Positions 8,098 to 62,899 of a stretch of 64,000 nucleotides of DNA are shown one piece after another. Position 1 is the stretch's first letter. Every line of letters starts with the position of its first letter. The stretch comes from Pomacea canaliculata (Eukaryota; Mollusca; Gastropoda; Architaenioglossa; Ampullariidae). The position numbers and the translations under genes are program-made. The stretch is taken from assembly GCF_003073045.1 (NCBI RefSeq), contig NC_037602.1, positions 7,922,464 to 7,986,463 on the forward strand. Reading direction: 5' to 3'. The notes under the pieces were generated by a model. That model made no database searches, had not been told where the DNA came from, and saw only the letters and a list, made by a program, of their open reading frames with translations.

Positions 8098-11000
8098 TCA
8101 CCACGGATCTCTAATGACGCTGGTCAGGGAAATCTGGAGACCAGGTATCACGTCCAGTACTTTCTTATGGAACTTCTTCAGGTTGAACTTGCTCTCTGCC
8201 AGATTCAACAGTCACATTAACACCTTAAAGGACTAGTGGGGAAATTTGTCTTCAAATTACTAGATTAACTACTCGGAGTGTGATGGTGGTGGAAGCAACA
8301 GGTGTTTTACAGCGAGCGAGCAAATCTAAATCACGGCAAAGTGGCCGGCCCTGTAAACAGGTGCCGCATGCAGAGAAACAACAGTACACCTGAGACGAAA
8401 TCTGAACCCAGGACAGCCAATCTTGACTGTATTAGTGACAGGCGGTAACCGTTGCTCCACCTAACCGTCCTGAAAGTTCAATGCGAAATATTTTTGTTTG
8501 GTCGGGCGTGCGATAGATAGAGATACGGAGGATAGAGCGAACAATACATTTTGCCACGGATTGTTGCCAAGCAGGGACTTGACTGGAATCTACAGGGGAA
8601 GAAGAGAGTTGGGAGACCAAAGCAGACTTGGAAAAGAACAGTAGAGAGCGAGGCAAAAGACGTGGGAACCACATGGGCCCAACTGAGGGGGGCTGCCGAA
8701 ATCGGCTGGTGCTGATGCAAGAAAGTGCTGAAAAAAACTGCGGATTTTGAAATATAGAACACTGGAGAAAACATACCGTGTCTTACCTAGTGTTTAGTGC
8801 ATAACGCTGTAGCTGTAGAGTATCTTACTATTTGTTAATGTAACTATAATACCGTATTCCATCTCTGCAATCTGTCTCAAATCCTGCAGCTTGGATTGTC
8901 CCATGAGGGCCGCAGTTGCCTCCCCAGGCAAGCTGATGGCGCTGTCGAGCACTTGAGCCAGAAACTCTTCAGGAAAGCTGTTGTGATCGTACAGGTAGGA
9001 AGCCGCTGTACTACGTGACCACCTACACAACACGTGGTGCCGACGTTTAGATAACGTGAACATCAAAATGCCTTGCCCTTCGACAAAATGCATTTCCCCA
9101 AGAACAAAGCAAACGAGAGTGCATGCGCATAAGCATTCTAACGTGAAGCTCCCAGCTCATGCATTCAGGTCACAGGTCGATTCGATCATTTGCCAAGTTG
9201 ACCATAAGACGATTCTACTACATCTATGATCAATTCGACATAGAATATAAAGGAACTTTTCTGTAGTTTCTTTTATTTATCTAGAGATTTTTTTTTTAAA
9301 TTTTCTCCTTATCTCTGCAGATAAAAAAATGTAATTATTGTTTTTGGTGTGCGATTATCTTCTCTCTTCCACTGTGTGTGTCTTAGGGGGTGAGTGGATT
9401 TAATGATGCTGATCTTTCTCGCTGATGATTAACTTGACTATAGCCACTTCCATTAAATGTCATTGAGTCAACCTTTGGCTGTGGTCGAGTCGACTTGGTA
9501 AAAGTAGTAAATGGTCGAAATGATTTTTGAAATTTTTGATTTTTGAAATGATTTTTTTTTCGAAATTTGACCGCAGCTTTCTGGATCTGAACGTTGACAA
9601 AACGGAGGAGATGGCCTTTGGAAGAGCCTACGAAGGAAGAGATGGCACAACCCCTCTCTCCCCACCACTCCAAATCAAGGGACAGCAGGTGCAGAGGGCT
9701 GCTGTGTTTAGGTACCTTGGTACAGTGATCGACGGAAAGCTCTCATTTAGTGATCACGTGAACCAAGTGTACAAAAAGGCCCAGCAACGGCTGTACCTTC
9801 TGAGGAGACTTCGCAGCTTCGACGTCAGCTCTGGGGTGCTGGAGACTGTGTACAGGTCTCTTGTTGAGAGCATCCTCTCATTCAACATCGCTGCCTGGTA
9901 TGGTCATCTACTAGTCAAAGACAAGGCAAGGCTGGCCAGAATCATCCACCAGGCAAATAAAATTATTGGTCAAGCACAGCTGCCACTTTCTGACTTGTAC
10001 CTTCATGCAGTCAGAAGGATGGCACATAACATCATTTCGGACCTGAAACACCCTCTCCACACTAGCTTCCAGCTGTTGCCCTCAGGCAGGCGCTATAAGG
10101 TCCCACGCATAAGGAAAGCTGCCTACAGAGGTCCTTCGTGCCAGCAGCCATCACCATCCTAAATAAAGGCACAAGGACTCAGGAGGAATCAAACAGAGAC
10201 TGAAGAAGAGTGAGTGCTGACATCTATTGTCAGCCATCACCTCGTGTGTCATTCTTGTCAATGACATTTTCTGGACGCAGCCGCGGTAAAGTTGAAGAAA
10301 AATGAACAATTAGCAAAATAAACAACTGATCAATGCGTACGTGTCATCTACGGTGTCACCGATCACCGCAACTAAAAAATATATCCATGGTATTCATATT
10401 GCCATGGCATAGCGTCGCACGAACTGTTTCATCCTACACTTTGTGCGAGTTTGTTGCCTGTCTCGCGGTAAGTCGCTGCGATCTGCGCGGTTCGGACACG
10501 ATAGGGACTCATTTCTGGTACTGTCATCTGACACCACAGACACTGTTACTTCTGGCACCACAGGCATGTCACAAGAGTTTCTGTGGTGATGGTTTGGAAG
10601 AGTAGCATACCACCCTGGCGTTTCCTCTTCACTGTCGTCATCCTGAAGGTATGGCGCCTCCCGCAGTTGAATGTCCTTTATCTTGGAGTATACCAAATGA
10701 TCGTCTAGGTACACAAGAAGGACTGAAATTAAACAGTTCGGCATGGTGGTCTGCATTAACCTCTGGAAAGTGGCTGGTGTGGACGTCAGACCCATTGGCA
10801 TCCTGGAACGGGCGTGTTGCCAGCGGCCCTAGCCAGTCCTTTTGTTGACAATGTCTTCTCAAGATGAGCTTCATGCACGGCTGCCTGTACTGCCTGCGCC
10901 ACATCTTCGGTAGAGTCCATTATCTGATCAAGGACGTTCTTCCCTAGTAGAAGCGACACGCGCCTCCTGCGCTCACTTGTGACCACATCGACCAGGTCCT

Positions 11001-14000
11001 TGACCACCAGGATAGGAACGTCCTCAGACGCTGGCCGTAAACATGTCCACCACCGCCACTCCTGAGTTTGTTTTAGCTGTAAGTCCTGTATGTGCCCTCG
11101 TGCCCATCGTCAGTGACCGTCGTTACCTCACTGCCGGTGTCGAGCAACGCCCATCACTCAACTGCCATAAATGACAACCTCCGCGCGTCGGACACTTTCC
11201 AGTCAGGCCAGCTACACTTTATTTCCCTGTCATCCTGTTACGGATGACGGGGGCAGTCACTTTCCCTGACCGGTCGGGCTGCAGTCCTCCGAGATGGTGT
11301 CAATCGCCGCCACTTCGACGCTCTGCGCGCCTTCTACCTCGCCTGCTTAAATTCTGGAGCTTCGCGGCGTATTCGTCGACCACCTCATCACGTTGCTGTG
11401 GCACTGATGTCGACATCCTTCCGTTCGCCGTACGCCTCCACTAGGACACCAAGATCTTTCTCGGCGTATCTCTTGCGTCATGCGGAAGCATCAACACTCG
11501 ACGTCTGGCAGGTCCCTCCAGCGAGCTCAAGATGTAACCACGAGCCGCATTCTGACACATCGGGTTTATGGCGAGAGCTCACTCGACCTCTGTTTTCAAT
11601 CTCGTCGACACTCGTTGGTCCACCGGCAAACTACTGAAAGCGGACTAACTAGTATGCTCGTAGAGCCTCTGCCCACCCAACGGATAGCATCATGGTCCTC
11701 TCTATGTACTAATCTTCTGTCGTGGGCTTCTGCCCGTGATGAACAAATGTTTCTTTTTGTTCAGCAGTGCTTTTAGGCCCTTGGTCACCCAAGGTTTGTT
11801 GTTAGGATAAACATACACTGCCTTGATGGACTGGTGCAATCAACACTATTTTACTCCTCACTTTTACTCCTAACTGTTTGTTAAATGTCTGTATGGGTAT
11901 GTGAGCAAAGACAAATTTCTGTCCTCCTGGGCAGACAATAAAGTCTGTTTTGATTTGATTTTGATTTTGAATCGACCGGTCCCTCCTTCTCCCTCCACAT
12001 TTCTTAGAATTTACTCTTTTTTTTTTTTTTTTTTTTTGGCGGTCGGACACACGGACAATGAGGATATGCGCAAAGGCGATACGTTACATACACCGTGCAA
12101 AGTATTACTGCCTGCTTCGTCACTACAGCTACTACTTTTAAATGTATTTTCTTCGTCTTTTTTGGCACGAGAGCTCATCCAGTCTCCTGAACAATCGAAA
12201 CGTTTCCATAGCACGTTATGGAAACCTTGTTAACATATTTCGTGACCTATGTTCAAACCAGGGGGACCCGAGCGGTATTTTATCTAGTTAAGAACGAAAC
12301 TGGGGTCAACTGTGATCGCTGATTCTTCTGAACCAAGCTCAGACCGGGAAAGAGAGTTTGCGCACGACGGCGCTCGGCTGGTCACGTGACTTACTTCTTC
12401 CAGTGGATGCCCACGTCGACGGCGGCGGCTGTAGCACGCAACATCCTTTCGGCGTAAAAAGCCAGACTGCCGACCAACATCGAAGACATAATTTTACTGG
12501 CCGCAATTATTGAGTATTATTTCTCAAACTATTTCAGTCTTAGCTATTCCACACACAGCGGAAATCATTTCCGTCCTATTAAACATGCAGCACTTGATTC
12601 GAAAAGTAGCGAATTCGACTATAATTAAGTTGGCTTTAACTGCTTGGTTTTATGCAGACTGCTTTTTAAAATGCCTCTCATCATGCTTACTGAAGTATTT
12701 ACATCAAAACCTCATGCCAACAAGAAACTTTCACTAAATGTTGTGACTCAAGGAACATCTTTTTGCTTGTGTGAGATCATGCTAATCAGACTTCCAGTTT
12801 CGTTGTTATTACGAAGGTAAAGGTACATCGACTCTTATAAATATATACCCAGAGTATAATCACTTCTACTATATTTTCGCTAAATTTTTCATGCATGTTG
12901 TTAAAATATTATTATAGAATTTAACAAATTATTTCCTGTCTTTGGGGCGAGTCATTGTCATAAATATTGCGATTCAACGACACGAAAATGTTAGCATTAT
13001 AACTCCCTAGTCTCACTCTTTCTTCCTATTTTACCACACACACACATAAACAGGTAAATAAGTACATTCCTCCGCATAATTATTTCACTCACCGATTCAA
13101 TTTAGACCTTTGTAACCCCATCTCCAGGCTGAGAGCTTCAGCATAGGCGCCCCAGCCCTGCACGGTACCCGCAGACACCTTAGCTCAGACGATTCTCTTA
13201 CCATTCCGAAGACACTACCACCCGAAACCCTCGTACTAAATCTGATATGCAATTTGTCTTTTGTTATGTACCCCCTCTCTCTCTTTTCCCTCAGTGTTAT
13301 ATCCCTTTAACAGACGTGCAAATGCCTATGATACATTTCATGATAATGTTATTTAATGATGTGATATGATGCATATGATAATCTATTCATAAATTTTTTG
13401 AGTGATTTTAACGGCGCTAGGAAGATGTAGTTCCTGATTCCAAATTCATGACAATATCCAGTCATGAATGTAGGTAGTACATGCTGCTGCTCCTAAAAGT
13501 TAATATCATGATTAATTAAACCTCCCTCATGACACAGTGACAGTAAAGTGGGCCAGAGTCAAGTCTCTGTGTGTGATACAGGGCTGTATGCACGCATGTG
13601 TGTATGTAAAAGTGTGTATTTATTACTTTCTTTGGTCGTTGAGTTGGATGGTTATTTGACTGATTACAAACTTGCATGTAAAGATTTAGACATAAAAATC
13701 ATTCATAATATGTTTTCACGCCTATGCTCGTATCGTGGGCATTCATTTTACTGACTGATCAACTGCCACATTTAAAAGTCGTTATCTTTATAGATTCTAA
13801 CTACAACTTTAAGTGGAATCTTTGACTGCTCTTCTTGCTGGATGACAAAGAAAACGATTTACCCAATGAAAAGCTGGAAACGGAGTCTGAGGAATTGTAG
13901 GTACGGCACCTCTTTTTAAAACGGGCCACTTCAGATACTCCGGAACGTCGGTCCGATTTAGTAAGGTAGCAAACTGCAGAACATAAAAACGTGCATAACA

Positions 14001-16221
14001 TTCCTGCTGGCAGAGATGAGAGAGAATAAAGCTACCGATGAAATGCTACAGTAAGATAAAGCCAGCTTCAGAAACAGTAAAGACTGAATCAAAACCTTGC
14101 GTTGCGTTTGAAGATCCACCGTGAGAGGCAGGCATGTCCATTCTCCTCCTGCTCATCATATCATCATGTTCATCGTCGTCGTCGTCGACGACATTATCAT
14201 TGGTGATGCACGAGCAAATATGTCAGATTACATAAGAAAGAGAACATGAAAACCTCATGCAAGTGGAAGCTAGCAGACGTTGTAAGAGTTCTCACCCGAA
14301 AGTGCTCGCCAGGTATTCCGTATCTCATTGCCATCGGAAGTAGCCTGTGTCTGAACCTGCGGAGCAATACAGATCGTCTTCTGCCTGTCTTGACTGATAA
14401 CAATAGCTATAAATCCTGACAACTATGGCTATAATAGACTGATACGGTTATAATGTCTTTCTAACGATTTATAATAGCATGAACACTGTGGCAGATTATG
14501 TGATAACCGATCTGTGAATACCAGATAATCATTTCAAAACACACCGATCACTTTGTACTTTAGCCTGATGACTATGATACTCAGTCCGAAAATTAAAATA
14601 TATATGAAAACTTGGTAGATATCGAAAGTGTGATAATTGTAGTAATCGCTCCTTTTCCTTAAATATATATTCATAACGCGGTTTACACTCACGCATTTCG
14701 GGGGTTGATGTACAGCGTGCCTCTGTCGTAGAAGGTTCGATCCCACCAGTGCTTCAGTAACACAATTCTGCAATCGTAGGAAATAATTGTGAATTATCAG
14801 GCTCATTTATAGTTCAAAGCCTTAGATTCACACAGTGAAAAGCTGGCCTCAGCAAACTGATATGAGATGGGCTCATCATTTGAAGAGATTCAGAAGCCAG
14901 GTCTTCAGTATGACTAATTTCATCTTTACCTGAAGGACTTCAATATTTGTTAAATATCGTCAGTGTTATGACTACAACCTTGGGAAGTGGACAAAGACAT
15001 TTTCCCAAATCAAGGCAATCCTGTGTTTTGCTGCTTGCTTTTTCTTCTTTGTATTTCACTAAAAGTTCGACTCACTTCGGGTTAGGCGGTAGCTCTACGT
15101 CCATCACTTTCGACAGTTTTGGCTTGATTACTTCATTGAGAAGTCGGTGCATTTCTGTAACGATCTCACCCTGAAAGCATGCAAAAGAATATCAATCCGT
15201 GGCAAAATGTATTGTTCGCTCTATCCTCCGTATCTCTATCTATCGCACGCCCGTCCCCATTGACATTTTAGCTTGAAGACTTACATCAAACTTCCATAAC
15301 GAATAAAACAAACTAAACTGTGTGAATACGTCAGGATCATAAATCCATATACATTTTGTAAATATGCAGAAATATTAGACTTGCTTCCTCTTGTACATTA
15401 TTATCGGTAAAGGTTTAGAATTTTTTTTAAAATCATGATTTTTGTCTTAACCGATCACTCTCGCTCGTAAAGATCACACACACACACTCTTTAATATCGG
15501 CGTACGATCACAGACAAACGTTACAACAGTAAGCTGCACAACGAGCGACATACCGTGGAGATTGGGGTAACTTCTCTCTTCAGTTTTTGAAAATATGTCG
15601 TCATCTCATAGTCGAAGAAATCAGCTTCCATCATCTATAACCGGAAACAAAAATATTCAGCTGTTTCCAATGTCTAAGGATTTTAATGAATGTGATTAAT
15701 CCTTCCCCCCTTTATGTCCCTTCACCTCACAACACTTAGCAATTAAGTTCGTTCTTTTTTATCTACTGCCACATAGCAAAAATAAGATTCCTTCCTAGTT
15801 GTCTCATGAATCCCTGCACTTCTTTGTATAATACTGGCTGTCAACAAATAACCAAGGCTCTTACATATGAAAGTTACTGAATTTCCCAGCAACAAAAGCA
15901 AAATTGTTTGTGAACAGATTAGTACAACCTAACCTCTTCTACCGCCTCTGATATCTTCAACACCTCCCACTCGGCATGATCCATGATTCTGTCAGGGTCT
16001 GGACTTGGTTCTCCAAGGTACCACTCGAGACAGGCGATGTAAAACTCTTTGCCATCCGGTAGGGATACTACACTAGGGGACGGCCGTAGATTCTTCCAGT
16101 AAACCTATAGCGAAGACATGATATTAGTTGTACTCAAGAGGTTCAGGCTAATTTGTCATGTTTCACTCATCCTGTCATCCTACAGATTTTAAGGGGTGTA
16201 ACTACGGAGAATTGATTATTC

Positions 16222-16288
<67 letters not shown>

Positions 16289-19200
16289 ATGGATGATGGA
16301 TGGTGGTGGTGGTGGTGGTAGTGGGGGTGGTGCTGCTGCTGCTGGTGGATGATTTTGATGGGTGAATGGATGATGATGACGATGACTATTCAGCTACTTC
16401 AAGTCGATGTCTTGATCTACACAAGTCGAGACTGTGACCATGTATCAAAGCGATGACTTACGTGCTTCAAGAAAGACTTCATGGCGCTCATCTGATATCC
16501 CAGGGCTCGCCGAGCTTTGGGTAGTATTTTTGTCACAGGGTATCTGAAACCAACCACAACAAAGGATTTCACAGAGGCCTAATGGACTGAGGATAAGCAG
16601 TCTGTCCCACTTTAAGAAGAAAAAAAAAGGGGGGGGGGGCTACATGAGGAGCCAGATACAAAGAAAAGCAAAGGAAGTAAGGAAGAGGGCTTTTGTAAGC
16701 GGCATATATTCCAGAAAGGAGTAGTAGGCAGAAAAAGAACACAAAAAAGAACAAAAAAAAAAAAATAGAAAAAGCAAGAAGATAAAACAGTCCAGGAAAT
16801 AGCAGAGGGTTCCAACGATATTTTGCATGACAGGTACTATGTACTGCCCGACAATGGACTAAAGAGTTGTGGGATAATCTCTTGTATCTTACCTCTCCAA
16901 CGGATGAACGAGCAAGTTGTCGTAAAAACCATCAGGAGATGAACCGTCATATGCCCTCAGGAGAGACTTTATCTTATAAATCTCCGCCGGCGTCATAAGC
17001 TCATCGAAGATTTTTGGCAACAGGTACTGATGACAACATCTTTCTTTAGTCTCTCATTCTCCCTCTCTCAGGCACACACACACAATCTCCCTCTCCTCCT
17101 CCTCCCTTCGCTTTACTATACACCAGTGTCAGTGCAATAACAAAAAAACATGTAAATTTTATCTTTTGTTTAAATTTGCAAGCCTAATACATTGTAATTG
17201 TTACACATCCATCAACAAAATATCTATCAAATATACATAGTATCACCTTCACTTGAAAAGAACTTTACAGTATACTTAACATAAATTTCAAGTAAAAAAA
17301 TTTTTTTACAAATTGTAGGCAAGATAAGCTTGAGCTGAAGTTGCCCAAGATTTGATACTTTTCTGCCGTCTGTGTGTTGATATTCTGTTTATATCATGTC
17401 AGTTTTTACCGGTAAAACGCCATACAAACTATAGATAACATTTAATATTTACAACATCAGGTTTTTCCAAACACTTGAACTTACATAAGTGTGTGTGTTT
17501 TACATAGAGTACTAATAATACACCCACATATACACTTACTTTTAATTCTCTCATTGGCTCGTTTATTCCCGCATCTTGTTTCACAGACACTTCATAGTTA
17601 TGTTTCTTGAATATGTAAGCAAGCCCCTAGAGTATTTTATACACATTTAGCCTCCTACAAAAATGCTGCACAAGAATATGAATGTACTTACAATAGAATA
17701 GAGACTAGTTGCAATTTTTCTTTTCATGGCATGCTTCAAGGTGTAGGTTACGTTTAATACCTGGCAAAAATTTAAATATGACAAAAAATTATTGCAGTTA
17801 TTTAGCGTGTCTCGTTATCATCATATGTTTTTTTTTTTCATTCGTTACTTCTCTTTGTTATTTCTCTGCATTTTCTTTCGTTTATTAGGTCGTGGAACCT
17901 CATTAACATAATAATAGCAATCCCCCCCCCAAAAAAAAAAAAAATAGAAAAACAAAATGTTACATGGAAACAAGATGATATTTACCTTATATATGTTATT
18001 ATATGCACGAGCAAAGCGGCGCACACACACATCTTTCTCTCACACAAACGCATAGAGAGGGAGAGCGAGATCGCTAAAGTGTGTGTGAGAGAGAGAGAGA
18101 CCAATAAGAATCCTCAACAAATATTTGTCAGATTTCCCCTGATGTCTGATGCCACAACCTTTATAGCAGCTGGACTTGTATGTAGTATGTAGAGCCATGA
18201 GCAGTCATCAACTGCTCACATAGACTTAATCGTTCGTACGAAAAGTGTTTTCGCCTCGAGGCGATTTCGCACTATGAAGTGGAGGAAAAGGGTGATAGGA
18301 TAGCCTCGGCCAACGAGTACACGTGTACGTGTGTATATATATATAGTAATAATCTATAGGGGACCTGGAGAGCTGAGAAGTTAGAGAACTGACATCTGAA
18401 CCCGGAGGCGCATCGGTTTAACGGTTGTCAACACCACTATGGCGCAGCGAACTTTCCCAGTCAATCCAGCTGTCGGGAATGAGTATCTGAGTCCGTAGAT
18501 AACGAGGTAGGCCGGAGAGGAAGAAGAAATGGGCACCGCCCTCACACACACACAAAAAAAACAAAAACAAAAAACTGGACTCCAGAAAAGTGCAATCTTT
18601 CATACCTCACTCCCCAAGAACAGAAAATTTTTTTAGAAACGCACTCTACCTTTCTCACTTTTCGCATGCGTAGATATGGCTAATAAATACATGCACACAT
18701 TATGTACATACCATGCTTTGGAGAAGATTAAAGGTCAGAATTATGGTATGGTTGGTCCACTTAGTCCAGTGGCGCTGCATCTTATGAAGAACGTAATGCA
18801 TATCGTGAAGAAAGAAACCCTCGTAATTGCTCAGCCTTGTGATACCTACAAAACTGTATGTTTACACACACACACGCATGTAATGCAGTAATGGCGAAGA
18901 CATTCCACTAGCTAGTATTAATTTAAAAATCAGGCATAAAGACACCCTGCTGGCTACTGGCTTTCTTTCTACATTCCCGCCAACAATTCTTCAATATTAG
19001 TCATACAGTCGCATGTGTACATATCCGCTAACTACTGGCTTTACTTTAGCGCCAATAATACCGGACATCCCCACTAACTTTTGGCTTTCCTTTTAAAATC
19101 AGAAGTACAAGTATATTCTGGCATCGCTGCTAATGGCTTTTCTTGACGTTCAGTAGTCAAGCCCTATGCCGACATCCCAGCTAACTATTATTTTTCCATA

Positions 19201-21885
19201 AAAATAATTAAAAAGTAACAGGCATAGGTGGAAATCCCCACTAAATATTAGCCTTCCTTAAAAATAAGTCGTACATGTGTGAGTATAAATCCATCAGTTG
19301 ATTAGTTCTTTAGACTTTGTCGTAGTTACTGGCGTAAGATAAAAACGCTGTGTAAGTGCGAAAGCTAGCCAAACTGCCAAACGCAGAGGCTGACACAGAC
19401 AGGAAGCCAGCCAGACAGACAGATAGACAGTAAGGAAAGGGCAGCTGTGCACGTACTATTTCCACTTCTCCATGTTCTCAATGTAAGTCGTCAGGATGTA
19501 GTGCAAGGTAAGGTAACGAACTTGAAGTTTGGGGCTGAGGACAGATTTGTTTGCCGACAGCAGTGCCTTCAGGAACATGAGCATCGTGGCCTGCGGGTAA
19601 ACAGCATTTACACCTGTCATTCCAATGAACTGCTACTGTTCGCATAAAATTGTCGTTCCAACAGGCTGACAATGGACATCATTTACAATGTCATTCCAAT
19701 AGGCTTTCGTCTGTTCATACAATGTACACCTATCATTTTTGACGAGGCTGATAACAGATTGTTCTCACCTGTCATTTTAATATTCTGAGAGTGTAAAGCA
19801 CTTTTACATGTCCCGCTCATGCCTTTAACCCTCTCAACCCTCACCTAACCTGCACGTGGCATTTCAACAAGCTGTGACGAGAAACAGGAGCTGAGGCCTG
19901 TTAATCAAAACAGCCTTGCGTGTGTTTACTAGGCTGCGTGTTCACTTCATTTATTCAAATGAGCTTTCTCCAAAAACACAAATACCTGGCTATAATTTTA
20001 TCTTGCTGCGTGTCGTCGATGGGTTTGCCATACTTTTATCGTTAAATAAGACATCGCAATGAACAACCGTTCACACAACCGTTACAAAGGCTCCGATTTG
20101 GGAATTGATGAGTGAGTGAGACGGGAATGGGGTGGGTGTTTTACACCGAGCCAGCAACTGAGGCAAAACGGCCAGCCCTGTAACCAGTCTACATGTAGAG
20201 AAAGAACAGCGTATCTGAAACGAAATCTGAACCCAGGACAACCAATCCTCACAGTAATAGTGACAGGCGCTAACCGTTGCGCCACCGGACCGCCCTGAGT
20301 GAGTGAGAGCTCGAGTGAGTAAGAGTGTATAAAATGTAATAGAGACATTATTTTGGAGTGTTGCCAACTATTATTGTATCTCCGACTTCTTTTATGTATA
20401 TGCTTAAAATATGTATGTACTGCCAGTTGACACTTACCTTTCTGCATTCAATAACTTCAAAACCCCAGTCATACAAAGTTGGTGGGTCGGGGGAAGACAT
20501 GTTTGGAAATGAGTCCGGAAAATGGATGAGGATGAACCTGTAGAACTCTTTCTCAATTAACGTCAGTTTTTGCTCATCCGTATAATTTCCTTCCTTAAAT
20601 GGGTCCTCTACGTCCCCTTCCTTCAAGAACGCCCATTTCCAAATGTAGCCAGGACAGTTCCTGACTGTAAACATTTTATCAAAAACAAAACATTTAGCGT
20701 TTTGCAAGCATGCTTTGTCTTTCGTAACCACCCAAAACATGTCTGGCTCCAGTCTGGGTCTCAGCGTAGCGATCACGGCTGTCTGGGCATTCCTGACCGA
20801 CTGGGTGTCGTCTGGGCATGGGGTGTAAGGTTAACTCGTGAACATGCATTTGAGCAAAATTAACAGATATCTGTGTATTGTTGGTTGTGAGTATAGTTCT
20901 TCAAACCATGGCCGGACTCACTCGCGCTGTGCTTTCGAATGATTATTCGCCAAAACAAGCTCAGACACTCTTGCCCGCTTCAACACCCATGCATGCGTGG
21001 TTGGTTAGTAATGCCCAGGCATTCACAATTGTCATATCTTGGCTTGCTTACTGAGGCAGCCGGAAATAACGCAGAACACTTTGGCATCGCACCATCTTCT
21101 TTTCAAATTATGTGCCGAAGCAGTTTGTTTACCTTTGTCAATCAATGGGGAAACTAAGCGGTTTCCACAAAACGAACTGTGCTAAAGATGCTATTGTAGG
21201 TGAAGGATCATTGTCTAATTCTTTTTTATGACATAATTCAGAACCTCAGCACCTATCAGTTATGGTTATTACTGATTAGACATGTTTTTCTATCTTCGAT
21301 TTGTCCGGTTTGTTTTTGACTTTTTGTTTTTTCGACGATGACTAGTAAACCAAATCCACTCATTGATTTCAACAACGATTACAAGTGAGAACAAATAAAG
21401 TATCTTACCAATTTCACAATGTTTTCCAGTGAATATGGGGTCATTGCATACGCAATGAGTAAAGTTCTGTGCATAAGCGCTATTTAGGTCTCTTCCCGAT
21501 TGGCAGTAGCCACCATTTCTGCATATGGAGCGGGGCAAGCAGCGGTCGTAGACATCTGTAAGAGGAGGTGATTGTAATGACAGTCTGACGAGACCGAAAC
21601 GGGAAAAGGTGTGTCTGTCAAAACAAGGCTGTATTCAACCCGAAATAACCTAAATCTTATTACAGTGAGAAAGGACGATAATTTCGTAGATGGCCCCAGG
21701 GCGATGATAATGATGATGATGATGTCTTAGCATACTCGACAGCAGCCATACTAACCAGCATTTCTTTCGTCGTTCATTAAGTCCTCTATCGGCGTCTCTT
21801 CTCTCCTGTACCTCTTAAGATTGAGAGTAGAGGTTAATGTTACCATCGCAAGAGCGATTAACAACAATGGTGTCAACCCATCCAT
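8098..21885 (-). CDS. Secreted EGF-like plus DUF885 domain protein
   Basis: Nineteen minus-strand exons join into one frame of 776 codons including the stop: 21885-21756, 21555-21409, 20811-20438, 19590-19457, 18853-18712, 17760-17692, 17626-17540, 17026-16893, 16543-16462, 16104-15934, 15634-15554, 15170-15076, 14767-14693, 14356-14296, 13973-13863, 13157-13093, 12496-12395, 9022-8853 and 8195-8098. All borders are AG/GT and all phases agree; the donor at 8852 is weak. Residues 1-20 are a signal peptide (MDGLTPLLLIALAMVTLTST). Residues 49-90 are an EGF-like module with six cysteines (C49, C55, C61, C78, C80, C90) and an NFT glycosylation site. The rest matches the DUF885 fold in order: EFYIACLEWYL, RGTLYIN, YGIPGEHF (585-593), GWGAYAEAL (632-640), RATAAAVDVGIH (673-684), WSRSTA, LRQIAEMEY and FNLKKFHKKVL. 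Bacterial members, as I remember them, carry HEAxPGHH and EGWALYAE and are thought to be metallopeptidases. Here the first motif reads RYGIPGEH and the Glu before GW is Trp, so metal binding is probably lost. Likely extracellular; function unknown. Confidence 0.85.
8301..8473 (-). mobile_element. tRNA-derived SINE, copy 1
   Basis: On the minus strand this begins with a tRNA-like head with an A-box-like stretch (GGAGCAACGGTTACCGCC), continues through a B-box-like GGGTTCAGATT and ends in a body with GTAAAACACC. The same order and wording recur at 20122-20295. It lies in the last intron of the EGF-DUF885 gene, in the same orientation as the gene. Confidence 0.7.
8504..8716 (+). mobile_element. 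LINE fragment, end of reverse transcriptase ORF
   Basis: From about 8567 the plus strand reads WNLQGKKRVGRPKQTWKRTV followed by TTWAQLRGAAEIGW and a stop. This is the familiar carboxy tail of non-LTR reverse transcriptase ORFs (GKRKRGRPRxTWRR...). The fragment is 5'-truncated. The 61 bases at 8504-8564 recur almost perfectly, inverted, at 15192-15252. Confidence 0.65.
9576..10190 (+). mobile_element. L2-like LINE fragment, 3' end of reverse transcriptase
   Basis: An open stretch reads NVDKTEEMAFG, then FRYLGTVIDGKLSFSDHV and RLYLLRRLRSF, the C-terminal part of an L2/CR1-group reverse transcriptase. Near 10130 the reading shifts frame: the expected ending SFVPAAITILNK is present in the next frame and runs to a stop near 10203. 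The element is 5'-truncated and lies antisense in the 3.4 kb intron of the EGF-DUF885 gene. It is a dead copy. Confidence 0.8.
10394..11640 (-). mobile_element. Ty3/Gypsy-type LTR element fossil, pol fragment
   Basis: Minus-strand coding remnants resemble the protease and reverse transcriptase parts of a Ty3/Gypsy-type pol gene. No long terminal repeats were recognised, so the ends are approximate. It is broken in several places and looks old. It sits between LINE pieces in the same host intron, so it either inserted into them or was inserted beside them. Confidence 0.65.
11690..11825 (-). mobile_element. LINE ORF2 fragment
   Basis: The minus strand reads NNKPWVTKGLKALLNKKK followed by LFITGRSPRQK, the linker between endonuclease and reverse transcriptase in L2-like elements. 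It is short and in opposite orientation to the LINE piece at 9.6-10.2 kb, so this intron holds at least two LINE insertions or a rearranged one. Confidence 0.5.
11850..11985 (+). mobile_element. LINE 3' tail
   Basis: The sequence AGACAAATTTCTGTCCTCC, then GGGCAGACAATAAAGTCTG and TTGATTTGATTTTGATTTTG has the short inverted repeat, AATAAA and TTGATT-type tail seen at the 3' ends of L2-like LINEs. It probably belongs to the plus-strand element at 9.6 kb, separated from it by the intervening fragments. A T-run follows at 12019-12038. Confidence 0.55.
15192..15252 (-). repeat. 61-bp copy of the 8.5 kb LINE segment, inverted
   Basis: The stretch starting CAATCCGTGGCAAAATGTAT and ending CTATCGCACGCCCG is a near-perfect reverse complement of 8504-8564. 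It lies in an intron of the same gene. Flanking bases do not match beyond it, so it is a small dispersed piece rather than a full element. Confidence 0.7.
16222..16318 (+). repeat. (TTG)n microsatellite followed by TGG/TGC repeats
   Basis: About 22 uninterrupted TTG units lie at 16222-16287, followed by degenerate TGG and then TGC triplets to about 16345. It lies in an intron of the EGF-DUF885 gene. An apparent valine/glycine-run peptide here is only the translated microsatellite. Confidence 0.95.
18365..18475 (-). mobile_element. Possible second tRNA-derived SINE family
   Basis: On the minus strand GCGCCATAGTGGTGTTGACA is followed about 20 bases later by CTCCGGGTTCAGATGTC, spacing like A and B boxes of a tRNA-derived SINE. 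Only one copy is visible in the window, so the assignment rests on the box-like motifs alone. Confidence 0.35.
18920..19275. repeat. Degenerate ~60-bp minisatellite
   Basis: Five or six diverged units share a core like CATCCCCGCTAACTATTGGC followed by a T-rich tract and an AAAATCAG-type end. Examples are TGGCTACTGGCTTTCTTT, CCGCTAACTACTGGCTTTAC, CCACTAACTTTTGGCTTTCC and CCACTAAATATTAGCCTTCC. It lies in the intron between exons 5 and 4 of the EGF-DUF885 gene. Confidence 0.65.
19605..19860. repeat. Degenerate ~60-bp tandem repeat, second type
   Basis: Four diverged units share CACCTGTCATTCCAAT or similar followed by a GGCT-containing stretch: ACACCTGTCATTCCAATGAA, ACAATGTCATTCCAATAGGC, ACACCTATCATTTTTGACGA and TCACCTGTCATTTTAATATT. 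It lies just upstream (in gene sense) of exon 4 of the EGF-DUF885 gene. Confidence 0.5.
20122..20295 (-). mobile_element. tRNA-derived SINE, copy 2 with target duplication
   Basis: The minus strand starts GGCGGTCCGGTGGCGCAACG with an A-box-like GTGGCGCAACGGTTAGC, has the B-box-like GGGTTCAGATT about 45 bases on, and ends near GTAAAACACCCACCCC. The copy is flanked by TGAGTGAGTGAGA on both sides (about 20109-20121 and 20296-20308), a likely 13-bp target duplication, though this tract is itself repetitive. It matches the copy at 8301-8473. Confidence 0.75.
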
Positions 21886-22330: not shown

Positions 22331-23896
22331 GTCATATATCTCTCTACACGATTGCTAAAATCTGACTTATGACGAGAAAATGTGTCTAACCCTTCCCTCC
22401 TCACCCTAACTTTTAAAAGATGAAGTTCAAGAGAGATATGTCACTTTGTACTGACTTCGACATCGGCATCCATGGCGGTGTGAATGTTACTGTGTGCGAA
22501 TAAATGCAGCTGTCTGAAACATGAATCTGTTTAGTCGACATAGGTTATGGTATTGTTTAGTACTTTCATAATGAGATTGCCCCGAATTGTCTTCGGGGAT
22601 AAATAAAAAGTTGCCTTAAATATACTTTCAATTGTGGAATGATGTAAAATACATATTATAAAGACTAAAATTCCTCCATCCGTCACCAGCCGTGATAGTC
22701 TAGTGGTTAGGACCTCGCGTTGTGGCCGCGATAACCCCGGTTCGAATCCGGGTCACGGCAACTTATGATTTTTTCATTCTGTACGAAGTTTTTGGCAACG
22801 TTGATGAAAAGAATGTGTTGTTTAGGCGCGGATATAAACTGCTTTTCAAATAAAGTTCTATGTGGGCATACGTGCAGTATTGAGCTCACATAAAATACAG
22901 AATCGAGACTGTTACTGTAACATTCCTATAAGTTTTAGCACGTTAGGAGTCAGTAATATAATAGTAATAATGAGGATTTCAAAAGATTTGCTCATAGTTT
23001 TTTACGTAAATCATACATAGACTCAATAATCAACAACCAGAAAGGGTGACCTAACATATTCCTCACTCTGGGCCTAGACGGGAAAACTATATAAGCAGAA
23101 AATGGCTTTCCTGCTATATGCATCTTCATGTTAGAATTGAAAATGAAATTGACATTTATATTCCGTATATAGCATGTCAAAATTCAAGGGGGATTGTAAA
23201 CCCCCAAAAATTACAATCCAAAGATGGATAAAGAAAAATGTTAGTATTTTTATAATTATTTTTTCGTACTATGCCATGTAGTGTTTCCATCCGCATCTCC
23301 ATGTGCATATATTATATGATGTGTGCATTTATATTTATAATTGGTGTGACTTTAAAATTGTGATTATGTTGTCTGCAGACATTGAAGTTGACACAGCAGC
23401 AGCAAAGCATTGCCATGCACCATATACCTCTATTTTTTCGTCAGTGTACAGTTCTCTCCCAGCAACCTTATTTTTTTCCATGACATAGTTTTAATATTTT
23501 GGATTATGTATACATATCTCTTGTATTTGCTTCACCACTGTATTTTGTTTTTATTCGTGTAAATTGAGGAGTGTGCATGTCTTTAATTTGTGTCACACTA
23601 TGTACTAGGCTGAGAAAGACTTTTTACTACTCGGGTTTTATTGCCTGTAATCTCCACCCTGCCTCAGGGTCAGGGTAGCAATAGGGAAAACTGACCGCTT
23701 GTAAAAGTCAGCACTAGTACTTCTACTTTCCCTCGCACGGGCTAAACCATTTTTTAAAAAAAAAACGCATATAAGAAGTTCCGTGCCCCCGACACGAGAT
23801 GAGTCGGCCCCTGCCGCTGCTGTCTCTCTGGAGAGTTATCGTCAATTCTTTTGGAGAGTTCATTCCCTTGCTAAACTCACGCTACACCACACCAAA
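22331..23896. other. Intergenic, upstream of RBM8A
   Basis: Apart from the tRNA-His gene this region is AT-rich and I see no exon. From about 23765 it becomes less AT-rich and includes the presumed 5' UTR of RBM8A (CCCCTGCCGCTGCTGTCTC region). Confidence 0.4.
22689..22760 (+). tRNA. tRNA-His (GTG)
   Basis: A 72-base cloverleaf is complete. The acceptor stem GCCGTGA pairs with TCACGGC and the discriminator is A. The anticodon stem TCGCG/CGCGA encloses the loop TTGTGGC with anticodon GTG, and the T arm is CCCGG-TTCGAAT-CCGGG. The A box TAGTCTAGTGGTTAGGAC and B box GGTTCGAATCC are intact. There is no genomic CCA, as expected in animals, and no intron. It is a lone gene between the EGF-DUF885 and RBM8A genes. 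A SINE origin is unlikely because all stems pair perfectly. Confidence 0.95.
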
Positions 23897-26800
23897 ATGG
23901 CGGACGTTCTTGATCTCAAAGATGGCGAAGAATTTGAAGTCGACGAAGAAGGAGATCGTGAGTACAGTGTTTATTTTTTTTTATACGAATAAGTACAACG
24001 AGATTACCACAGGTCATTTAATCCAATACAGATTATGTTCATTCCGCAGTCTGTAGTTTGCAATATCCATACACTAAATTACTAGTCAGTGGTAGTTAAA
24101 ATATTATTAATGAATTATTTTCCTTTTTTGAGCCTCCTGTCTCCGACCAGTACACGAAGCTGGTTATGTTTAGTAGTCAGTGATGCCTAATCTTGGTTAA
24201 TTTCGTGTAATTGCAACAATTTCAGTGTGCTGTCCAGGTAGAAGATAATGAAAAGTGGACAAAGGGAAGCATTTTGGATAGAACTGGTTGGAAAAAGATA
24301 ATCAGTTTCTGTTGATTACTGTATTTGGAATGCTTACTGTAATTATAAATAAAGCGGCATCTCAAACTGATTGATTAGATTGTTTATATTTCACAAGTCT
24401 TGGTAAAACTGTATTTCTCTCTTTTTAGAGGGGCTGCAGAAACTGAAAGAAAAAGCTAAAAAAAGGAAGGGTCGTGGCTTTGGCGGAGGTAGGTATCACA
24501 ACAAATAGTTAAATATGAATTTCATATATATGATCCTTGCACATGTTGTACATTGCAGAATGATTTCTCATTATTGGCTTGAGGGTGTGATGATTGCTGT
24601 ATTCTTATTTTTTTAGTGGCGTTTTCCTTTACCTGCCTATTTTCTGTCAGCAATTCTCACTGAAATCCTTATTGTCATCCTAGTTTTTTTCCCTTGCCTG
24701 TAGCGTTTTTGTTTTTTCTGTACAGTTTTCTACTTTCCCATTAACTTTTTTCTCTGCCTATGGTGATAGGTCAAGCTATCTAATCTCAAATGCATATATT
24801 ATTTTTACAGATAAAATAATGAACTGTCTGAACTGTAGATCCAAACTATAGAGTCATAAACTTTTTTGACTGTAAAAACAATGTACAAATTTATTTGCCA
24901 AGTGACACCTTGCTAGGAACATGTCTTAATGATGGCCATCACCTTATCAACAATCACCATTAATGCACTTGTAGATGTCACTATATGCATTATTATATAT
25001 ACAAATGAGTACAAAAAAGAAAATTTCTCACCTTGTGCCCGTGCATTTGTGTACTCACCATCTCTGAAATGCGTAAATGGCCACTTGACAAAACAGTCAA
25101 AGAATGTATCTTGTAATAGCAAATACAGTGATCCCTTGTTTATCGTGGGAGATGCATTCCAAAACCACCCACGATAACCGAAAATCCGCAAAATAGTATT
25201 GGTATATTTATTTATGCATTTATACACTATATTAAGGCTTTATAAACCCTCCCCCATACTTTTACGCTACGTAAACCTTTCCCACTTACTTAATAGTCAC
25301 TTCTCCAGCAACAAACCAATTGTGTTTTGTTTACAAATGTGAATAGGCATGTAGCATCTCAGGCAAGTGATGCTGGTTCTCGTTTCAGAGTAAATACATG
25401 CACTATTTACTGTAATTCATATTAATTTTATTTATAATATTTGTTTATTGTTAGAATTAATATTAGTAATATATTTTTATGCACTTTGGGCTTTTTTCAT
25501 CTAAAAATTCATAAAATATTTATATTTTCCACTGATTGAATTTCGTAGAAAATCCACGAATCTTTTTTCCCATTAATTTCTTATAAAAAACCCCGATAGG
25601 TGAAGCCCAAAGTGGCGAGAGATTACTGTAAACATGATTTTTCTCTTTAAAATATCTAGATTATATCATCATGTATTATTTTATTATCTCCCTACTGTTA
25701 CAGGTAATAAGTATTAACACAATGAGCAAAATATTCACATGAGATAGAGCCAATATGATGGGTTGGTGTCACATAAGTACTAAAAATATGAAAGTGCAAA
25801 TCAGTGATATATAGCATATGCGGTTTGGTAAATTATTCAATCCAGGGACAGAATTTAAGTCCTGAAAGTGCATGGAAGGAATGACAAATAATCTTGTGTT
25901 AATCCTCAGTAAGGCTTAAAAGCAAACCCTTCCAAAGCTATATTTGATGCCCACAAAAAAGCTCATCCCTCTCTTGCATATGAAATGGAGCTCATTCATG
26001 CAAGCATCATCTTGAAATCAGAAAGAGGCCTTATGGGCCGTGTAGTGGCTGCTGATCTAGGTATCATGTGAATCTGGAATTCACTCTATGCTCCCACATT
26101 TACAAGTAACAAAGAATTAATGTCCTTGCCTATTTTTTATGTTTCGTTATGTAAAGTGCCATGAGCCATTTCTCATGGTTTGGTAAAGTGTTTTGTAAGT
26201 AATAATATTCTCATTTCTTGCTGCTTACGAATTTTATATGTGGAAACAGAGGGACCTACACGGAGTGGTGTTGAGCAATATGAAGGAATGGAAGTGGATG
26301 AAGAAACTTTGGGAGATGGCCCAGGACCCCAGCGCTGTGAGTATTAATAACATGGGAATACATATATGGATCTTTATTTTGGCGCATTGTGGAAAAGGAT
26401 CAATAACTTTGCTGGCCAAAAATTAAATATACCCATGATCCCAACAGCTGTCTGATCTATAATAGTAGTATAAATATTTGTACTTTTTTTTTTAAGCTGG
26501 CACCACAGACATTTCTCAGTTGATAAAAGATTAAAATAATGATAAATTAAAGACATTCATTGGTCCAGGCTGGACCACTAGCTATATGTCCAAGTATGCC
26601 TGATCAAATTCTTTAGTTATCACAAGTGAAACAACTTCTTAACTAAAGAGTGAAACATTTTTACCATTAAAACTGATCAGGTGGTTGGTGATGTAATGAC
26701 ACTCTGCCTCCTTGTTTATATGCTGTTTAGGGATGTGTGCATGTAACATGACACACAAAAAGGAGTAAATATTTTATGTAACCAGTTGCCATGTCTTATT

Positions 26801-27970
26801 AAGATGTTTTATTTCTTTACAGTTGAGTTGAGTGTTTTTAGTGAAAAGGCCACTTGTATGATGGTTGAGCACAGAACTGTACAGATTTGATAAATTATTG
26901 TACTCATTTTACAGCTGTAGAGGGCTGGATCTTATTTGTTACTGGGGTGCATGAAGAGGCACAGGAAGAAGACATCCGTGATGCTTTTGGGGAGTATGGA
27001 GAAATAAAAAATCTGCATCTTAACCTTGATCGACGCACTGGTTTCCTCAAGGTATAAATTTGTTTGTGTAGAAGTTTGGGTTTTGGGAGGGGTGGGTTTT
27101 TTTTTTAAACTTGTAAGAATCTCTAGCATTCATTGCATGGAAATGGATTCTATTTTATTTCACTCAGAGACCTTGAGATAGTTTAATAATTAATAATAAC
27201 AAACTTACTGCTGTAGCTTTTCTTTCAGTCAATTTTAATTCTGACCTGAACCAGTGTTATGGATATAATGTCCTTTTTTTGGATTGCTGATTAGAGCTAT
27301 ATATTTATGGTTACATGCAATCTGTGTGATATATTGCCTTATATTTATATTAATGTTAGACTTTGTATTGATTTGTTTACAGGGTTATGCCCTTGTGGAG
27401 TATGAAACATTCAAAGAAGCCCAGAGTGCTATGGACAACCTCAATGGCACAGAAATCCTGGGTCAGAAAATATCAGTTGATTGGTGTTTTGTTCGAGGAC
27501 CAAGGCAAAATAAGTAAGTTATTAATCCTTTTTAGCAGCCTGCTTTAAAATGTATGGGGTTTGAAATGTTATTCTTTTACCGGTATAGTAATCTCATGCT
27601 ACAAGTCCTGTTGAGAGCATGATGTCACAGCAGATATTTTCTTGCACCACTTGTAATGTTTTGATAACCCAGGAGCAGAGAATATGCAATGGAAAATGTC
27701 TACAAATTCAAATCTTGACTTGTAGTATTTGTTATTGTAGACTGTTTACAAGCTTGATAGTTCATGCTCTTTCATCCCAGTTACACACATATAAACCCTT
27801 TGATCTTGGTGACTTCACACCCATGCATGAAAGAATTTTATGTTTTAAAAGTGTTCACGAATCTAAAGAATTAAACATGCAAACACTATTATAATGATCC
27901 ATACTAAAATTTGTTCCCTCATATCTTCATTTTCAGAAGCCGCAGTAAAGATGACAGGAGGCGACGTTGA
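23897..27970 (+). CDS. RBM8A: RNA-binding protein 8A (Y14), exon junction complex
   Basis: Y14 pairs with Magoh in the exon junction complex, which marks spliced mRNAs for export, localisation and nonsense-mediated decay. Six exons join in frame to 169 residues: 23897-23957, 24429-24488, 26250-26336, 26915-27051, 27383-27513 and 27937-27970. The start [20 protein letters not shown], the basic stretch [15 protein letters not shown] and [20 protein letters not shown] match animal Y14 closely. The RRM spans about residues 78-156, with RNP2-like ILFVTG and RNP1-like KGYALVEY. As known for Y14, this RRM face binds Magoh rather than [14 protein letters not shown] follows and the tail is a short [10 protein letters not shown]. 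Length and order agree with the human protein (about 174 residues). A mariner-type MITE sits in intron 2. A poly(A) signal AATAAA lies at 28657-28662. Confidence 0.97.
25126..25628 (+). mobile_element. Tc1/mariner (pogo-like) MITE, full length
   Basis: The 503-bp element is bounded by TA dinucleotides and has imperfect terminal inverted repeats: CAGTGATCCCTTGTTTATCG at the left against CAGTAATCTCTCGCCACTTT read inward from the right. It has no transposase ORF. It lies within intron 2 of RBM8A. A 5'-truncated relative is at 61060-61307. Confidence 0.8.
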
Positions 27971-37358: not shown

Positions 37359-40300
37359 ATGTCTTCCAAACAACGCCTTCAGAAGGTGGCGCTGCACCTG
37401 AGTGTTTACAGCGTGGATCCGGAGTCTTTGGGACTCAACAACAGCCCGACGCCAGAGCAGAAAGGTAAAAGTTCATAGGCGTTGTCACCGTGAACTACAC
37501 TCATCCCCGCTGTATGTTCAAGTACATTATATTTCTGTGATACCGTCATTTATCCACATTTTAAGATTAGTGTAGTACTTCTATCTTGCTTTCTTTTTCT
37601 CTCTCTCTCTTTTTTTTTTTTTTTTTTTTTTTTGCTTTATCTTTCTTTTCCCTTTTTTAAAAAATCAAGAAAGCTTAAGTTGTCATTTCTTCTTCATTAA
37701 CTTTCGACACCTTGATTTTATATTTGCTGGGCATATCAAAACTTAAGCGCGATAGCTTAATTAACTCCACCCCCAAAAAGCGAAGACAACAGGTTTTCTT
37801 TAACAGCAGCCGAGTGATGTTCTTCTGCCCCTTTCCTTGTTTGTTTTTGTTGTTTGCTGTTGTTTTTTTCTGCTTTATTATGACCGAGTGATTGTACAAG
37901 CTGTTGCTAGGAGAGACAAGGAGAAAGGAGAAGTATGCCTGCATAAGTTACTCGTTGCCCCAATTCGTTTGAGGCGGCGGTGGCGACTTGCGAGGAGAGC
38001 CAACAGTAAAAGTACAAAAAAAAAAATAAGGGCAGGAACAGAAATGTTGCAGGTGTACATACGGACATACTGGTCTCCCCGTGATGCATACTGTTTTATT
38101 CGCCTTGTGATGTATAATGATAAGCTACACGTGTGATACATACTAGTGGTGTCACAAGCGACGTGAACTGTCTTTTAAACTCGTGAAATAATAATAATAA
38201 TGATAATAATAATAAGTATAAAATGCGTGATTTATCTAGCTCATGTTCATGCCAATGAAGGAACGTGCTCTCGGCGCTTGCGACAACAACGAGAGCATAT
38301 GAAGGACGGAAGGATAAACAACCGTACCGATGAAAGACAAATATAGAAAATATAAGAGGAGTAGGGTAACAAGAAGTTTGGCGAATCTGCCGAGAAAGGC
38401 GAGTAAGCAAACTAACTAGAAGACTAGAAAACAAAACTATTATAACATAGCACACATCCCCTATTATTTTATTCACCCTGTGATCTATCCAGCCTAGGAA
38501 ATTCTGTACTTCTGTTTTACTCGCTTGTTCTAGCAGCAACAAGAAATGTCAGAAAACGTATGAAGAAAGATAAACCTACGTCAGTTTTATAGTTTGAATA
38601 CATTTTCTTTGCAAGTTTTTTTTCTGCATTAGTTGTAGCTAACCTGACCCAGGGCAAGTAAAGGCAAGTTTTGCAAAGCAACAGAAGAGTGCACCTGTCA
38701 GGGCGGCGTCGACCGCTGGAGGATCAAATGAGGTCACAGGTAAAAACAAGCGTGCCGACAGGACGCCCTCCGAGGTCGTCAGGAGATGAGCTGGTGAATG
38801 TACAGCTGCCAGTCCCCTCCCACCTCCCCTTTGTCTCAAGTTGTCCACTGGGACTGGGGTTCCTACCCTCCTCCCTTCCACAAACACACACCTGAGTGTG
38901 TTAACCTGAGGAATTTGATGTATGTCTAGATCGGATATTAACTTACCCGAAGAAATTAAATGTGACGGGGGTGAGGGGAGAAAAAAAAAGAGAGGAAGGG
39001 GGCGTGAAAGGGTAAATGGGAAAATGAAGTGGACTAAAATTAGACCGAGAGCGGGAGGTAGTCAAAACTTCTTGTCTGGCCGCACCGTTTGACACAGTTC
39101 CTAACGCCGACAATATCTGTGGTGTGTACCTGTTGGAGCAGGTAACGAAGCGACCGAACCTGACACCCAGTTAAGCGTGGACTGAGTGGCTTAGAGGGGG
39201 AAATCGGTTCTAACAGTCATAATCTCTGTGCATTGAATATTAGAACACTTGCTATACGTCTCTAGAACATACAGGTACAACACCGAACATAATCAGTCAC
39301 GGAGTAATCTTGATATTCGATTGTAATTTGGAAAGTAACAAACAAACGGTGGAGATAAAGATCGCCAGTAGAAAAATATTTAGATAATTAACATGAAGTG
39401 TAAAGTCTTTAATTACAATGATATACTTGACTATCATGTCAGATTTTGTTTGTGCGAGGATTCACAATAAGAATGTTAACCGTTGAATTAATTTTCGCTT
39501 TTGAGGGGTTGAGGGGTAGCGTACCTGTTATTCTAAAAAAAAAATTTTGTGAAATGCCGAAGTGTTTGCGACACTAGGTAAGTGTCGCATGTTGAAACAC
39601 GCCAAGGCTGCGATAAGGGTCTGTATTGTGACAGCATTCGACTGGCGTGAATGTCTTTTGGCACTGTGTCCTGTAGCCTGCTGTCTACCTGCTGTCTACC
39701 TGCTGTCTACCTGCTCACCCGGGTTATGACTGGAGGTGCACGTCGTCACGCGCGTGACTTCACGGTATGCATGTCGTGACGGTGTAGTCTAGAGAACACA
39801 GTGTGTCACCGTCGTTTTTGGCGGTTAACCTCGAAAGAACCTGCATGGACTTCGCGGATGGCATGTTATTTCGTAGCCACGTTTGAAGTTCAGAAAACAT
39901 TAAGTACATGTGTGCTGACTGCAAAGGTGAGTGTGGAGTAGAAGTTTTGTTTGTGTGTTTGGGGAGCAAGGGGAGAGCTTGCTGATACTGCTGTTTCTGT
40001 AATACAAATGCAGAAATAATAATAATAATCATCATCATCATCGTTATCATCATCATTATCATCGTTCTATATACAGCACTGTCTCCTTAAAAAGTCATCA
40101 CAATTAGAAGTTACATTCATTCAAGAGTCTATACTGTGGGGTGCGAGCTGAAGTACACAAGAAATTGAAGACTTCTACTTTGGTTTGTCTTTTAGAGGGA
40201 GACGCTCAACGGATCAGGAGCAGTCTACAACTACCACCATCATCTGCCAGACCTTTAGCGACGAGGACCAACGCATCTGGATCCTCAAGGGAGTCATCCT

Positions 40301-62412: not shown

Positions 62413-62899
62413 ATGACATTACTAACGGGGAACCGAGCAGATTTTGAAAGAAACATGGCAGCAGAAGGTTTGCTTGCCATGTCCAATTTGACTCCCGACG
62501 GTGGTGCCATAAAATGTGAAGAGCATGGCGCGGATGAAAATGCGAACTATACTGCTGCCCCAGAAAATAAAGCCTTAGAAAGAAGCCAGCGACAAAATTC
62601 TTTGTTTATGCTGGCGAGAATTCTGACTGATCTGAGCAGATATCAACAGGAACCTGTGTTGGACGATCATTCAGAGGACAAAGACCGTGCCACAGATTTG
62701 CACAATTACCATTCTCTCAGCGGCACCAAGGCCAGGAGAGGCAAAGGACCAATGACCACGCCTACCTGCAACTGGCCGTCAAAAAGAGACAGACAAGGCA
62801 AGAACGATGGCAAAAAAATGCACAAATGTCAGTACAAAGGTTGCGATAAAGTGTACGGCAAAAGTTCTCATCTCAAAGCCCACCAGCGAACACACACAG
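62413..62899 (+). CDS. Kruppel-like factor (KLF9/13/16-type), first coding exon
   Basis: KLFs are nuclear transcription factors that bind GC/CACCC boxes. The ATG at 62413 opens a frame of 162 codons ending at a GTGAGT donor in phase 1. It reads [14 protein letters not shown] and then [12 protein letters not shown], close to the FAAECLVSMS helix of the BTEB group (KLF9, 13, 14, 16) that recruits Sin3 corepressor. It ends in the first C2H2 finger: [20 protein letters not shown] then HQRTHTG. The exon break right after finger 1 is what I remember for this KLF group. Fingers 2 and 3 must lie beyond the window. The frame is open further upstream but without ATG, so 62413 is the likely start. Confidence 0.9.

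Follow-up and report, generated by a model that had tools for sequence, protein, structure and literature searches.

The window, a stretch of 64,000 nucleotides from the snail Pomacea canaliculata, holds a gene in which an EGF-like module precedes a DUF885 domain. The Pfam entry for DUF885 is still that of a protein of unknown function, and the locus raises the question of what such a protein does in an animal, and whether it can act as an enzyme at all. Two points that the sequence-only reading of this DNA did not contain came out of our analysis: the loss of the active site, which is the main point, and the presence of at least seven further DUF885 genes with intact motifs.

Gene model and domain content

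The EGF-DUF885 gene is real. It runs on the minus strand from 21885 to 8098 in 19 exons whose phases agree throughout, all 18 introns are GT-AG, and the joined frame contains no internal stops. The sequence-only reading had likewise proposed one gene of 19 exons with the same outer coordinates, which stands; the 775 residues it had counted become 772 in the revised model, with 2319 open bases. The parts of the gene are as follows.

21756-21885, minus strand: exon 1, with the start codon, a hydrophobic N-terminal stretch (candidate signal peptide) and then KRYRR; ends in phase 1
21409-21555, minus strand: exon 2, EGF-like module with six cysteines, symmetric phase 1-1
20438-20811, minus strand: exon 3, a 77-residue orphan stretch, then the start of the DUF885 fold (KEFYRFILIHFPDSF...RK)
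19466-19590, minus strand: exon 4, DUF885 fold
18712-18853, minus strand: exon 5, DUF885 fold, within a poorly aligning stretch
17692-17760, minus strand: exon 6, poorly alignable stretch
17540-17626, minus strand: exon 7, whose 3' intron is common to the paralogues
16893-17026, minus strand: exon 8
16462-16543, minus strand: exon 9
15934-16104, minus strand: exon 10, with the conserved DUF885 segment LPDGKEFY
15554-15634, minus strand: exon 11
15076-15170, minus strand: exon 12
14693-14767, minus strand: exon 13
14296-14356, minus strand: exon 14, holding the former metal-binding motif
14302-14325, minus strand: residues 582-589, RYGIPGEH, a degenerate version of the catalytic motif HExxPGHH
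13863-13973, minus strand: exon 15, end revised; last codon Trp, against Glu in relatives
13093-13157, minus strand: exon 16, start revised; GWGAYAE
12395-12496, minus strand: exon 17
8853-9022, minus strand: exon 18, C-terminal DUF885 segment; LPGEATAALMGQ, against WPGQA.AYK.G in relatives
8098-8195, minus strand: exon 19 and stop codon

The junction between exons 15 and 16 was revised in two steps, first a spliced alignment for which relatives served as guides and then a comparison with the seven paralogues. It was shifted to 13863/13157 because all seven paralogue models split there, right before Gly-Trp and in phase 0. An initial junction at 13910/13183 (765 residues, Gln before GW) was dropped on the strength of this paralogue intron position and a strong donor at 13863. 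The two alternative frames of the joined coding sequence hold 54 and 40 stops. Over the whole coding sequence the in-frame codon score is 0.176, compared with a mean of -0.117 (SD 0.079) and a maximum of 0.077 for 1000 intron windows. Taken individually, the scores of exons 1, 2, 6, 7 and 15 are close to zero or negative, and exons 1, 2, 6, 9, 14, 15 and 16 score higher in a frame other than the one used.

Other features lie in and around the gene. Intron 17 (9023-12394, 3.4 kb) contains retroelement remains. One fragment, on the plus strand, matches ALKBH8_N, which accompanies non-LTR reverse transcriptases, and another, on the minus strand, matches RVT_1 below the cut-off. A tRNA-His (GTG) gene at 22689-22760 stands just upstream of the EGF-DUF885 gene on the opposite strand. 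It is followed by a plus-strand gene at 23897-27517 with an RRM domain in the frame 27269-27514, which resembles RBM8A/Y14, its name and start being set by eye. Further along are a coiled-coil-like open frame at 40108-41553 with a weak FAM184 match below the cut-off, an open frame of 1013 codons at 52748-55789 with no Pfam match at E 0.01, transposase-like remains on the minus strand at 58636-59506 (zf-C2H2_12 over the cut-off, DUF4371 below it) and, at 62317-63018, a partial C2H2 zinc-finger gene that is KLF-like by eye, with zf-C2H2 below the cut-off.

Membership in DUF885 (PF05960) was confirmed by the profile search that the sequence-only reading had set as a check. The first model scored 128.3 bits (E 9e-37) and the revised model 122.5 bits (E 5e-35), both far above the cut-off of 32.4. 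The domain had been called complete, which holds for its length: BLASTP aligned nearly the whole domain with the rebuilt paralogue C14a at 147 of 586 identical columns (25%, E 1e-35). It does not hold for the profile match and the active site, as only the C-terminal part (mainly residues 572-755) passes the Pfam cut-off, the region before residue 572 scores 24.4 bits when searched by itself, and the active site lacks its catalytic residues. Among known structures the protein resembles two DUF885 entries in sequence, 3o0y (2.3e-12) and 3iuk (5e-5), and the same PDB sequence search gave no match to angiotensin-converting enzyme (ACE) or oligoendopeptidase F. A third DUF885 structure, 3u24, was matched by fold only, and only to the model of a prokaryote protein described below.

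The N-terminal part of the protein departs from its relatives. Exon 2 encodes six cysteines in EGF-like order, with C4-x-C5 and a Gly before C6, and is flanked by phase 1 introns. The cysteine pattern is judged by the usual criteria for EGF modules, and phase 1 flanking introns are the class used by shuffled EGF modules. The EGF module of the sequence-only reading is therefore upheld by cysteines and exon symmetry, but not by the profile score: searched alone against PF07974 (EGF_2), the exon reaches 20.7 bits (E 5.5e-4), below the cut-off of 22.1. A genome search with the EGF exon and the orphan stretch matched the window alone, and one cysteine-pattern scan of 14 fetched paralogue stretches found no EGF exon. 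Among the relatives examined, an EGF module before DUF885 was seen in the window protein only. Because the exon is symmetric (1-1) and the genome search brought up no second one like it, it fits exon shuffling and looks like an add-on of the window copy. The 77 residues between EGF and DUF885 matched no Pfam family. Their 5' acceptor is uncertain, 20811 being the best of four same-phase options, and an AlphaFold model of exon 3 alone (pLDDT 60) was uninformative on this stretch.

As for the proposed signal peptide, a hydrophobic stretch in exon 1 is recognisable by eye, but the charges around it are atypical, with an acidic N-flank and a basic C-flank (KRYRR, furin-like as judged by eye), which is unusual for a signal peptide. 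Since a good splice acceptor sits immediately 5' of the start codon, a further 5' exon is possible; a possible upstream donor lies at 22202. When the stretches upstream of the seven paralogues were scanned for signal exons, only C13_1 had a convincing candidate, ending in phase 1 as does exon 1 of the window gene, and a weaker one in C13_2. Acceptors compatible with phase 1 precede the first DUF885 exon in C13_1, C13_2 and C14a, more weakly in C13_3 and C13_4, and none was found in the stretch scanned for C14b; a signal-bearing exon is thus expected upstream in paralogues. The EGF-like exon, taken with a first exon that is hydrophobic, makes the EGF-DUF885 protein a likely candidate for secretion.

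The snail DUF885 family and its introns

A search of the genome for the DUF885 family returned 15 exon matches that resolve into at least eight genes, the window gene and seven paralogues; eight is a lower bound because the search scores its best candidates only. The paralogues lie on three contigs: C13_1 to C13_4 in tandem near 1.6 Mb of C13, C14a and C14b, and C3. They were rebuilt with a purpose-written spliced aligner, so that some junctions are approximate, and the models lack some terminal exons, namely the last one in C13_1 and the first ones in most. Mean identity between the window protein and the paralogues is about 22%. HE..PGH and the Glu before Gly-Trp are intact in all seven, which share the domain with the window gene and differ from it in keeping the four catalytic columns and in the absence of EGF by the scan above.

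We compared intron positions between the window gene and these paralogues. Twelve of the 18 introns match one in a paralogue in phase and within two alignment columns, ten of them exactly. The twelve include the one after exon 3, whose end (RK, phase 0) is found in all seven models; the match of intron 15 is partly by construction because the paralogues guided that junction. Random placement of 16 introns in 2000 trials gave a mean of 0.75 shared positions and a maximum of 5. The six unshared introns lie at the EGF end (1 and 2) or in poorly aligning stretches (5, 6, 8 and 13). These shared introns indicate that the DUF885 family is old in the snail lineage, in agreement with the long residence in the animal genome proposed from the sequence, and together with the seven paralogues they identify the window gene as a divergent copy within an animal family rich in introns rather than a recent bacterial insert. 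In a tree with the best 80 of at least 593 prokaryote rows, the eight snail genes fall on one side of a branch with weak support (73); the window gene has a branch of 6.04 changes per column and is poorly placed.

Some paralogues show features of their own. In C14a and C14b the last exon, read to its stop, continues past DUF885 as a hydrophobic C-terminal tail that may be a GPI or membrane anchor. C3 has an in-frame ATG (MTETADDQ...) in its first DUF885 exon, no signal exon was found in the scan of its upstream stretch, and it may be cytosolic.

DUF885 proteins of other eukaryotes are on record in the accessible open-access literature. The only animal's own DUF885 protein reported there is PVC-83 of the marine snail Raphitoma purpurea, a 606 aa transcript from a salivary gland/venom transcriptome with its role unassigned (PMC11359391); it is a gastropod DUF885 protein like the one in the window, and the available part of that paper lists no EGF for it. 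This fits the statement of the sequence-only reading that no animal role had been described, as none is assigned in the portions available to us. Elsewhere, DUF885 is reported in Dictyostelium, in a table of horizontal gene transfers (PMC3188802), and in a Talaromyces fungus (PMC8478523). Two reviews assign a DUF885 domain to the C-terminal region of Pseudomonas ExoU and tie it to activation (PMC5127104, PMC4331484). The remaining reports, as far as their text was accessible, are bacterial gene or protein lists and assays.

Substitutions in the predicted metal site

DUF885 belongs to the Pfam Peptidase_MA clan, and a zinc site of two His and one Glu has been predicted in a DUF885 model, according to one paper (PMC12572635). 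We modelled a prokaryote DUF885 protein (locus L066, 47-row alignment) with AlphaFold at a mean pLDDT of 93. Foldseek matched this model to 3o0y, 3iuk and 3u24. After these came oligoendopeptidase F (E 2.4e-4) and human ACE (E 1.3e-3), both matched only loosely, with a TM of about 0.3 and an rmsd of 17-18 A over long alignments. ACE (M2) and oligoendopeptidase F (M3) thus show a distant fold likeness to the prokaryote DUF885 model, and they differ from the window protein in being active zinc enzymes. Intact DUF885 members are presumably zinc peptidases as well; "peptidase" remains a prediction for the family because the accessible open-access DUF885 literature reports no peptidase activity for any member.

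We compared the window protein with 87 relatives: the seven paralogues and a further 80 from prokaryotes, chosen as the best among at least 593 matching stretches. The pattern used to find the prokaryote loci spans Gly-Trp and accepts either Glu or Trp at the preceding position, and the HE..PGH columns lie outside this pattern. The window protein carries H582R, E583Y, H588E and E628W, where all 87 relatives (prokaryotes again the best 80 of at least 593) have H, E, H and E, although the Glu column is partly selected because the search pattern fixed Glu or Trp before Gly-Trp. For the H, E and H of HE..PGH, the prokaryote proteins are uniform (80 of 80, with the same scope), in contrast to RYGIPGEH in the window. 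In one plasmid relative the residue before Gly-Trp is Asn. The substitutions at 582, 583 and 588 are identical in both gene models, and the fourth is Gln in the first and Trp in the revised one. Also lost are Gln591, Arg673, Glu708, Arg711, Tyr712, Gln718 and Tyr722, and residues kept near the motif are Pro586, Gly587, His589, Gly629, Trp630, Tyr633 and Glu635.

Identity reaches 97% or more in 47 columns among the 87 relatives (prokaryotes as the best 80 of at least 593). Of these the window protein retains 28, mostly Gly, Pro, Trp, Tyr and His, and has lost 19, compared with zero to five lost in each of the seven paralogues. Measured against 15 relatives (seven paralogues and eight bacterial proteins encoded on plasmids), the window protein has lost 23 of 50 near-invariant columns, and the four catalytic ones are all among them (hypergeometric P 0.038). 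For columns invariant in the seven paralogues the corresponding numbers are 46 of 91 and four of four, which is not significant (P 0.061). The enrichment of catalytic losses is modest because the whole window protein has diverged, and an enrichment of polar residues among the lost columns was unconvincing by eye. The argument for active-site loss rests on the identity of the lost residues, not on enrichment.

The window protein has neither the HE..PGH motif nor the Glu of EGW, the presumed third ligand, that mark a zinc metallopeptidase of the Peptidase_MA type. The loss of the predicted metal-binding and catalytic residues is well supported by these alignments, and the window protein is very probably not an active enzyme. 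The replacement of the catalytic residues also bears out the earlier suggestion of a change of function.

Function of the window copy

The explanation that we favour, with a probability of roughly 0.7, is a functional gene for a secreted pseudo-metallopeptidase that arose by duplication in an old animal DUF885 family, was tagged with an EGF module, and binds rather than cuts. It builds on the gene structure, homology, substitutions and shared introns observed here, and adds to them a putative secretion, a putative binding role and the predicted peptidase activity of the family.

Its main rival is a decaying gene, that is, a duplicate that recently became non-functional and whose frame is still open by chance. 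The very long branch (6.04 changes per column) fits relaxed constraint or decay too, as does the loss of 19 of the 47 near-invariant columns (seven paralogues and the best 80 of at least 593 prokaryotes). However, neutral sequence so diverged should have many stops, such as the 54 and 40 in the other frames, whereas here 2319 bases are open over 19 exons and 18 of 18 introns are GT-AG despite the mean identity of about 22% to the paralogues. The codon usage of the whole coding sequence is coding-like in frame, and 28 of the 47 columns are kept among the same relatives. We therefore regard decay as unlikely. Somewhat less probable still is a misjoin of two genes, with EGF exons 1-2 from another transcript and DUF885 starting separately. 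The agreement of phases, with exon 3 starting in phase 1, argues against it, as do the phase-1-compatible acceptors before the first DUF885 exon of C13_1, C13_2 and C14a and the candidate first exon of C13_1, also of phase 1; the low codon-usage scores of exons 1-2, the alternative acceptors for the orphan stretch of exon 3, and the one EGF cysteine pattern that found no match in 14 fetched paralogue stretches are what speaks for it.

A further rival is that the protein is still an active peptidase whose metal site has moved or changed. It would draw on the retained H589 and E635, and atypical metal ligands are known in other proteins. Yet the two His of the motif have been replaced, as have the general-base Glu and the Glu preceding GW, and so have Gln591, Arg673, Glu708, Arg711, Tyr712, Gln718 and Tyr722, which makes this reading very improbable. 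Recent transfer from bacteria is the least credible of all and was rejected because of the introns shared with the paralogues: relatives are abundant in prokaryotes (at least 593 stretches), but the gene has 19 exons, 12 of its 18 introns are common to seven paralogues on three contigs, and the eight snail genes group against the best 80 of those prokaryote rows, with weak support (73).

Under the favoured explanation, a functional pseudo-metallopeptidase, the window copy would have been duplicated within the old animal DUF885 family, whose seven other members known in the snail keep HE..PGH...EGW, the site expected of an M2/M3-like zinc-peptidase fold. In the window copy the predicted zinc ligands and the catalytic Glu, along with several further invariant residues, have been lost, and the symmetric EGF-like exon lies between the first exon and the DUF885 exons. 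With the fold kept and the metal site gone, the protein should therefore bind without cutting. Its target may be a peptide, or else a partner, for example one of the active paralogues; natural candidates are these intact paralogues and the substrates they act on, and the EGF module might give docking at the cell surface or matrix. A more specific version, in which an EGF-tethered non-catalytic binder acts as a decoy or regulator that holds peptides or the snail's own active DUF885 paralogues outside the cell, is possible, and we put it forward only tentatively.

A precedent from a different family (M2) is ACN-1 of C. elegans, which, going by the title of Brooks et al. 2003, is reportedly essential for moulting. 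ACN-1 is a relative of ACE in which the active-site residues are not conserved, as stated in the accessible part of one paper (PMC4769152), and both it and the window protein are animal members of zinc-peptidase families without the active-site residues. This precedent shows merely that dead peptidases can matter.

Reuse of peptidase folds for binding is known from the ADAM family. It is also known from the ACE family (PMC4769152), and the window gene is a candidate case of such reuse outside both. If the tentative reading as an EGF-tethered binder is true, no DUF885 pseudoenzyme would have been recognised, and no EGF-DUF885 protein described, before this one, to judge by the open-access literature. 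The interest of the gene lies in the active-site loss and the added EGF exon, rather than in the presence of DUF885 in an animal. The presence in one animal genome of a dead copy with an EGF tag beside at least seven intact genes makes a built-in contrast, and Gln591, Arg673, Glu708, Arg711, Tyr712, Gln718 and Tyr722, together with the metal site, are candidate pocket residues for the whole family, including its bacterial members.
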